Virus record (IMG/VR): IMGVR_UViG_3300034418_010231
Coordinates: 1 to 23,274 of that record
Reading direction: 5' to 3' (one strand)
Origin: a virus
DNA: 23,274 bases
The notes beneath the pieces are model-generated. The model was not told the origin of the DNA and did not search any database. It saw only the letters and a program-made list of their open reading frames with translations. The position numbers were made by a program, and so were the translations under genes. Below, piece by piece: positions 22,802 to 23,274 of this stretch; position 1 is the stretch's first letter; each line of letters opens with the position of its first letter.

Positions 22802-22897
22802 GAGTGTGGAAGGTCCGTTGCCCTCCGTTGGAATTAATATACAGGAACCAGGAGGGCACCTACCGGACCGTGTGCCACTAAGGCAGGTGGCACACTC
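22802..22897 (-). other. Nested inverted repeats between the 88-residue gene and the nuclease gene
   Basis: On the transcript, GTGTGCCAC pairs with GTGGCACAC (22887-22895 with 22870-22878, loop of 8). GGTCCG pairs with CGGACC (22864-22869 with 22812-22817), and inside it TGCCCTCC pairs with GGAGGGCA (22851-22858 with 22819-22826, loop of 24). The distal GAGTGTG (22891-22897) can instead pair with CACACTC (22802-22808), which excludes the first hairpin. There is no U-tract, so a simple terminator is unlikely. Confidence 0.65.
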
Positions 22898-23185: not shown

Positions 23186-23194
23186 ATTGTAGCA
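23186..23194 (-). promoter_or_regulatory. Extended -10 promoter before the 88-residue gene
   Basis: The minus-strand reading is TGCTACAAT, an extended -10 element (TGn followed by a hexamer one base from TATAAT). The start would be near 23179, about 17 bases before the ATG at 23162. No -35 is recognisable, which is usual for extended -10 promoters. Confidence 0.5.
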
Positions 23195-23210: not shown

Positions 23211-23274
23211 TTAGAGGTCCGCCAGCATCTCATCCAGGGCAGCGGTGTCGATCGTGCCATCCATCCAGCGGGCA
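23211..23274 (-). CDS. C-terminal end of an unknown protein (partial at right edge)
   Basis: One frame reads ARWMDGTIDTAALDEMLADL and then TAA (stop at 23211-23213). The helix-like pattern and GC-ended codons look like a genuine protein terminus, and the stop is followed by a promoter for the next gene. Only 20 residues are in the window, so the family cannot be named. A short GGGG/CCCC inverted repeat follows the stop but lacks a T-run. Confidence 0.5.
   Translation of the reverse strand, partial: ARWMDGTIDTAALDEMLADL

Follow-up and report, generated by a model that had tools for sequence, protein, structure and literature searches.

A putative yfr2-type operator-promoter cassette in front of a nuclease-like gene of a T4-like cyanophage

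The intergenic stretch that separates a nuclease-like gene (P1) from its upstream neighbour (P2) in a T4-like cyanophage is probably an operator-promoter cassette for P1, built on a site of the host yfr2 type, used in a PeSL-like fashion and acting as a seam for gene exchange. We propose that a dimeric DNA-binding protein would recognise a 22-bp dyad located just past the upstream stop codon, that the P1 mRNA would start at about position 22829 from a sigma70-type promoter whose -10 box lies 30 bp beyond the dyad, and that this mRNA would open with a small hairpin. The protein that binds the dyad would most likely be the host GntR-family regulator of yfr2, PMM1637/PlmA, and the cassettes, up to 25 per phage and mostly gathered in one small-gene cluster, may double as recombination seams for the swap or loss of genes. 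The initial annotation had regarded this stretch as a control region of the nuclease gene, and this idea is supported here in the form of an operator-promoter cassette.

The window, i.e., the whole stretch of DNA analysed (23,274 bases), belongs to a T4-like cyanophage, as indicated by its gp6- and gp25-like baseplate proteins and by its near matches among cyanophage records. Beside the feature, the minus strand carries the end of a third gene (P3), then P2, the intergenic stretch and P1 (Table 1), so that the flanking genes are those described initially, a small gene of unknown function and a nuclease-like gene. Searches of P1 against Pfam, NCBIfam and PDB sequences yielded no match of note. 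Its predicted structure, of low confidence (mean pLDDT 59.9), matched EcoRV chains at E values of about 5e-3 and none at 1e-3, and the residues D78/E87-x-K89 are invariant among the P1 relatives compared; the weak EcoRV-like fold match together with these residues is compatible with a PD-(D/E)XK nuclease. Relatives of P1 were located at 17 loci, and the one from P-TIM40 (32% identity) adjoins a DNA methyltransferase gene (L074 2839-4285). One possibility is that P1 is an enzyme of the restriction type. Next to P1 in the window, no partner gene was seen. At another P1 locus (L012, about 300-345), a tandem duplication of about 27 nt across the start codon creates two in-frame ATG starts.

Table 1. 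Features of the intergenic stretch and of the genes around it (window positions)
Feature	Position	Strand	Remarks
P1	22203..22790	-	195 aa; phrog_11812 (unknown function); nuclease-like
Outer 7-bp arm pair	22802-22808/22891-22897		
Leader hairpin GGAGGG-N7-CCTTCC	22808..22826	-	5' end of the predicted P1 transcript
6-bp stem GGTCCG/CGGACC of the initial annotation	22812-22817/22864-22869	-	encloses the -10 box
8-bp stem TGCCCTCC/GGAGGGCA of the initial annotation	22819-22826/22851-22858	-	encloses the -10 box
Predicted P1 transcription start, about 22829	22827..22831	-	placed from the -10 position
-10-like box TATATT	22836..22841	-	30 bp after the dyad
9-bp arm pair	22870-22878/22887-22895		
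22-bp dyad GTGCCACCTGCCTTAGTGGCAC	22872..22893	-	half-sites GTGCCACCT and, on the other strand, GTGCCACTA
P2	22896..23162	-	88 aa; no family; stop codon 22898-22896
-10-like box TACAAT of P2's own promoter	23186..23191	-	by eye; no dyad at the P2 promoter
P3, C-terminal end	23211..23274	-	relative of S-H9-2 QPB08281.1

The dyad is the core of a 9-bp hairpin, begins 3 bp past the P2 stop codon and has its sole exact copy of the window at this place, but its pattern, GTGCCA-N10-TGGCAC, with a broader half-site TGTGMCASTT, is dispersed through T4-like cyanophages. When the spacer was left free (4-24), 37 copies were found in 14 of 20 related records, 18 of them chosen by gene homology and 2 by the leader, and the spacer was 10 in 36 of the 37 copies; the reversed pattern gave 1 match in the same 20 records. 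A second set of 16 records, chosen for holding copies and sharing 4 records with the first set, had spacer 10 in 72 of 75 copies. With relaxed half-sites (GTG[AC]CA), 124 pairs were counted at gap 10 versus 8 at all the other gaps from 0 to 60, in 15 regions (232,892 b) chosen because copies cluster there. The arm types at gap 10 were C..G (79), A..G (32), C..T (8) and A..T (5), i.e., the arms carry uncompensated mismatches in 40 of the 124 copies. Likewise, the inner positions 7/16, the C/G just inside the arms, are Watson-Crick in 48 of 128 sites, below the 60.2 expected if they were independent. Thus, with compensation neither between the arms nor between the inner positions, the arms are not kept for RNA pairing. 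Fixed letters, a fixed spacer and a free centre are, on the other hand, what a dimeric DNA-binding protein would need.

In whole phage records, exact copies are present in ACG-2014f (25), S-CRM01 (11), P-SSM2 (6), P-TIM40 (6), S-PM2 (5), Syn9 (2) and P-SSM4 (1), and the reversed control gave 0 in all 14 named phages. No exact copy was found in the whole records of S-H9-2, S-CAM3, S-SZBM1, Ma-LMM01, P-SSP7, T4 and RB49, even though the first three belong to the Kyanoviridae. Most of the ACG-2014f copies (23 of 25) fall within 27-55 kb, and in one isolate, KJ019097.1, 23 dyad-promoter modules are packed in 28 kb (L323, 27224-54634), some of which have a G/C hairpin and a T run around the -35 position. 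A scan of genome contigs across phyla gave scattered single matches in many phyla, which we have taken as chance. In the literature searched, the dyad was not reported for cyanophages; an earlier mention may nevertheless exist.

The dyad has a counterpart in the host. A short version of the pattern was present in 117 cyanobacterial genomes, which is close to the level of its reversed control. The full consensus TGTGMCASTT-N4-AASTGKCACA gave 7 matches in 6 of 386 cyanobacterial genomes and 0 with the reversed control, and shortly after 5 of these 7 dyads lies the Cyano-1 RNA (RF01701), which we take to be the Yfr2 sRNA family. When all 7 full-consensus loci were scanned together with 6 of the 11 short-pattern loci, picked by eye, Cyano-1 followed the dyad in 7 of the 12 distinct loci (L340 and L349 being the same locus), and 5 of the 12 had a dyad without the RNA. 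Starting from the RNA side, a covariance-model search for Cyano-1 gave a match in 20 of 59 genomes; a dyad scoring at least 15/20 and ending at -36 to -44 was present in 12 of 22 loci above the cut-off, the other 10 scored loci having no dyad, and a score of at least 15/20 was reached anywhere in 8 of 627 control segments. This scoring left out L366, a short locus, and included two loci also known from the dyad search (L370 and L384). Seven Cyano-1 loci below the cut-off, scored apart, had no dyad at -36 to -44, and one of them (L374) scored 15 at -48. The spacing is also preserved, since the host yfr2 dyads have their -10 offset within 28-34 in 9 of 12 cases, at 31-32, and in 9 of 12 host loci the distance from the dyad core to the start of the Cyano-1 RNA is 41-42 nt. 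In yfr2 of the picocyanobacterial type, the half-site TGTGACAGTT stands at or near the same place in 5 of the 8 stronger matches among 40 small-genome records (L389, L390, L401, L391 and L392), where half-sites are single or back to back.

The host yfr2 promoter element is therefore like the phage cassettes in having a dyad or half-site at an equal distance to the -10 box and the RNA start. It differs from them in driving an sRNA and in having few copies per genome, whereas the phage dyad serves protein genes and reaches 25 copies; no RF01701 match was found in the six phage regions scanned.

Some of the host dyads lie elsewhere. Those of L341 (1523-1544) and L355 (1502-1523) have no Cyano-1 downstream, and, by eye, a gene resembling a hydrogenase small subunit follows the former dyad at about 260 bp. 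Two small contigs of cyanobacteria that carry a tyrosine-recombinase-like gene (L346 1537-1558 and L347 1539-1560) have the dyad in the phage layout, with a further small gene about 65-73 bp past it; this fits the plasmid role reported for PlmA. A CRISPR-like spacer at L345 (about 1510-1540) resembles, by eye, the dyad region of L346 and comes from the same genome (G134), and it may target the L346 contig.

As the same dyad is found at the same distance to the start in front of the host yfr2, the host GntR regulator of yfr2 (PMM1637/PlmA) is the most likely binder. PMC6778093 describes PMM1637 as a GntR-family regulator shared by all cyanobacteria and as a binder of yfr2 promoters with the CGRE1 motif, and our guess is that the dyad could be CGRE1 itself. 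PlmA represents a cyanobacterial subfamily of GntR regulators that interacts with PII-PipX; a link of PlmA to plasmid maintenance and to yfr2 has also been made (PMC6243067 and PMC5083789), and the former paper called its regulon undefined in 2018. As a guess, bound PlmA would activate and not repress. It is also conceivable, although we consider it unlikely, that the dyad binds a phage-encoded repressor or activator of early genes resembling the host regulator, and not the host protein: phages have far more copies of the dyad than hosts do, and regulators encoded by phages exist, such as that of the MarR type in P-SSP7 (PMC9692554), but the same site and spacing before the host yfr2 are more simply explained by a host binder.

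The position of the dyad with respect to the predicted promoter is nearly invariable. Of 128 phage sites, 94 could be oriented because just one side had a -10-like box at 28-34, so that the orientation was set by the box itself, and in 92 of them the box starts at offset 29-31; the other 34 sites were dropped, 23 with a -10 on both sides and 11 with none. With an orientation based on ORFs, the 128 sites have a -10-like box on the gene side in 91 cases and on the opposite side in 49, and 26 sites were re-oriented by the -10 box. We have attributed the boxes on the wrong side to the unreliable ORF-based orientation, although part of them may be real. Matches to the -35 box of at least 4/6 appear in 33 of the 94 oriented sites versus about 9 expected from shuffles; the dyad promoter of the window has no good -35. 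For 23 copies in ACG-2014f, and from its GenBank annotation only, the distance from the dyad to the start of the following gene is 58-64 bp in 20 cases, and in 19 cases the preceding gene terminates no more than 40 bp from the dyad start. The aligned P1 leaders carry TATACT, TATAAT or TATATT at the -10 position, and the P1 transcript of the window would begin where Table 1 places it.

The stretch had first been noticed for its inverted repeats, and all four arm pairs are present where they had been located. They had been described as three nested repeats; this holds for the 8-bp pair, which lies inside the 6-bp pair, while the 9-bp hairpin stands beside both. The 9-bp and the outer 7-bp pairs are mutually exclusive because they share bases, so the competition between them proposed earlier does exist in the sequence. 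Among 3000 shuffles of the same 96 bases, a perfect repeat of at least 9 bp (loop 3-60) appeared in 1.0% and one of at least 8 bp in 3.8%. Both strands of the region were folded, and the minus-strand (coding) RNA reached -43 kcal/mol (z -2.75), with 1 of 200 shuffles as good.

These repeats had suggested a switch of mutually exclusive RNA stems, in which the 9-bp and 7-bp pairs would alternate, the 6- and 8-bp stems would hide a ribosome site, and read-through from P2 would keep the nuclease silent. The stability of the fold is in line with it, and so is the 8-bp stem, which covers GGAGGG in a read-through RNA. In T4, soc, e and I-TevI have ribosome-site hairpins with an internal promoter that silence the read-through RNA, and the P1 stretch is like them in having a promoter inside a stem that such an RNA could form; it differs in that 30 nt separate GGAGGG from the start codon and in the lack of conservation of the stem among P1 leaders. 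The GGAGG that had been read as a ribosome-site-like sequence is, at this distance from the P1 ATG, too far for such a site.

The comparison of leaders does not favour the switch. We have aligned 18 leaders (12 distinct), comprising 16 of the 18 P1 leaders plus those of L068 and L072, which have an unrelated gene downstream; L005, which is truncated and has the stems, and L009, with a different leader that lacks the dyad, were left out. In this alignment, the covariation of the 9/6/8-bp stem set was no better than in shuffles (its score was equalled in 104 of 500), and the 6- and 8-bp stems are not in the consensus fold; what this fold does retain is a short hairpin, GGAGGG-N7-CCYTCC, along with base pairs between the right arm of the dyad and a GTGCC close by. 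Complete 6- and 8-bp stems occur in just the window, L006 and L005 (truncated), and L012 has them with one mismatch, i.e., they are mostly limited to close relatives, and most P1 leaders lack them. The sole observation that hints at an RNA stem is a complementary 6-mer pair of different letters in L018. In L003, L004, L007 and L008 the P1 leader persists with a degenerate left half-site, which speaks only partly against the switch, as another gene lies upstream and the gene order is not the same. Furthermore, the 5' arms of the 6- and 8-bp stems lie upstream of the conserved -10 box, and thus P1's own transcript would lack them and keep only the short hairpin; both stems could possibly form in read-through RNA only. 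Altogether, we regard the RNA switch as quite improbable. The short hairpin is paired in 95.8% of the cells of the 12 distinct leaders, its changes being to G-U only, with no double change. No known RNA family matched the window at gathering level, the matches being weak (E 0.36-2.7). By eye, many modules of other regions (L150, L194 and L090) apparently open their RNA with a hairpin right after the -10, e.g., GGGTGG...CCACCC.

A similarly low probability can be assigned to the dyad being a transcription terminator for the RNA of the upstream gene, that is, the terminator half of a PeSL. Its location at the upstream stop codon would agree with this function, and the S-CRM01 record labels two dyads as 'Rho independent terminator' (L324 3363-3392 and 32135-32162). 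However, TTTT follows the dyad within 10 nt in 1 of the 94 oriented sites and no T run was seen by eye in the window; a strict test for a terminator-like hairpin plus T run between the dyad and the -10 was positive in 2 of 94. Termination, moreover, needs neither fixed letters nor a fixed spacer and is hard to reconcile with the uncompensated arm mismatches mentioned above, and the host copies stand before a promoter.

Regarding the operator-promoter cassette as a seam, the gene upstream of the P1 leader is P2 in the window, L006 and L012, it is P3, directly, in L003, L004, L007 and L008, and it is another gene in L010, L011 and L013-L019; hence most of the other carriers do not have P2 immediately ahead of the P1 leader. 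In L068 and L072 the same leader stands ahead of an unrelated gene, and the string TGCTACAAT of the P2 promoter region recurs before a P1 relative in L009. Two ACG-2014f isolates, KJ019097 and KJ019105, differ by the absence of 3.4 kb encoding a DNA methyltransferase and a helicase, and their junction is one composite module, the left part resembling the left module and the right part the right module. Isolate junctions touch a module in 9 of 13 cases, a crude count in which shared events are counted repeatedly and genes end at modules anyway. The recombination site that had been suspected at this boundary is thus supported, in that comparable regions are recombination seams where genes are swapped.

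T4-type phages reportedly contain PeSL (promoter-early stem-loop) cassettes that take part in gene shuffling. The cyanophage modules resemble them as intergenic composites of a dyad and a sigma70-like promoter, present in many copies among variable small genes, and as elements with a gene-loss junction inside, of which there is one clear composite isolate junction. By their sequence, with the fixed -10 offset and the -35 enrichment, the promoters are of the early (host sigma70) type, so the P1 cassette would presumably be expressed early. Unlike a PeSL, the dyad has fixed letters and a fixed spacer and matches a host sRNA promoter element, a terminator role of the stem-loop finds no support, nearly all the dyad copies lacking a T run, and RB49 and T4 have no exact copy of the dyad. 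For the S-PM2 region that they studied, the authors of PMC4503421 describe few stem-loops and doubt a PeSL-type mechanism there.

That the dyad serves a site-specific recombinase of the dif or integron kind, which would mobilise gene cassettes, is very improbable, since the gene swaps at modules and the tyrosine-recombinase-like genes beside the dyad on two small cyanobacterial contigs are outweighed by an isolate junction that whole-module homology accounts for and by a fixed distance to the -10 box and yfr2 that a recombinase site leaves unaccounted for; the dif-like reading was set aside because Cyano-1 follows the host dyad at a fixed distance.

The use of a host regulatory site by phage genes has a parallel, as cyanophages carry host-type PhoB boxes. 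Both are sites of a host regulator borne by phage genes, and the difference is that PhoB boxes are another site in few genes, whereas the dyad serves a whole cluster of early-type genes. To our knowledge, the control of early genes in T4-like cyanophages is poorly known. We tentatively suggest, as a reading somewhat less likely than not, that their early-gene cluster may be wired to the host PlmA through up to 25 yfr2 operators at yfr2 spacing, so that its expression would read the nitrogen and light state of the cell (PII-PipX-PlmA), or else the phage DNA would soak up PlmA and shut off yfr2, with the cassettes acting as seams for the trade of genes. If this is true, a host regulator of these phages would be named and infection would be tied to the nitrogen and light status of the host; the modules would be the cyanophage counterpart of the T4 PeSL cassettes and a route for variable genes; and the dyad would offer a site consensus for PlmA, the candidate binder.
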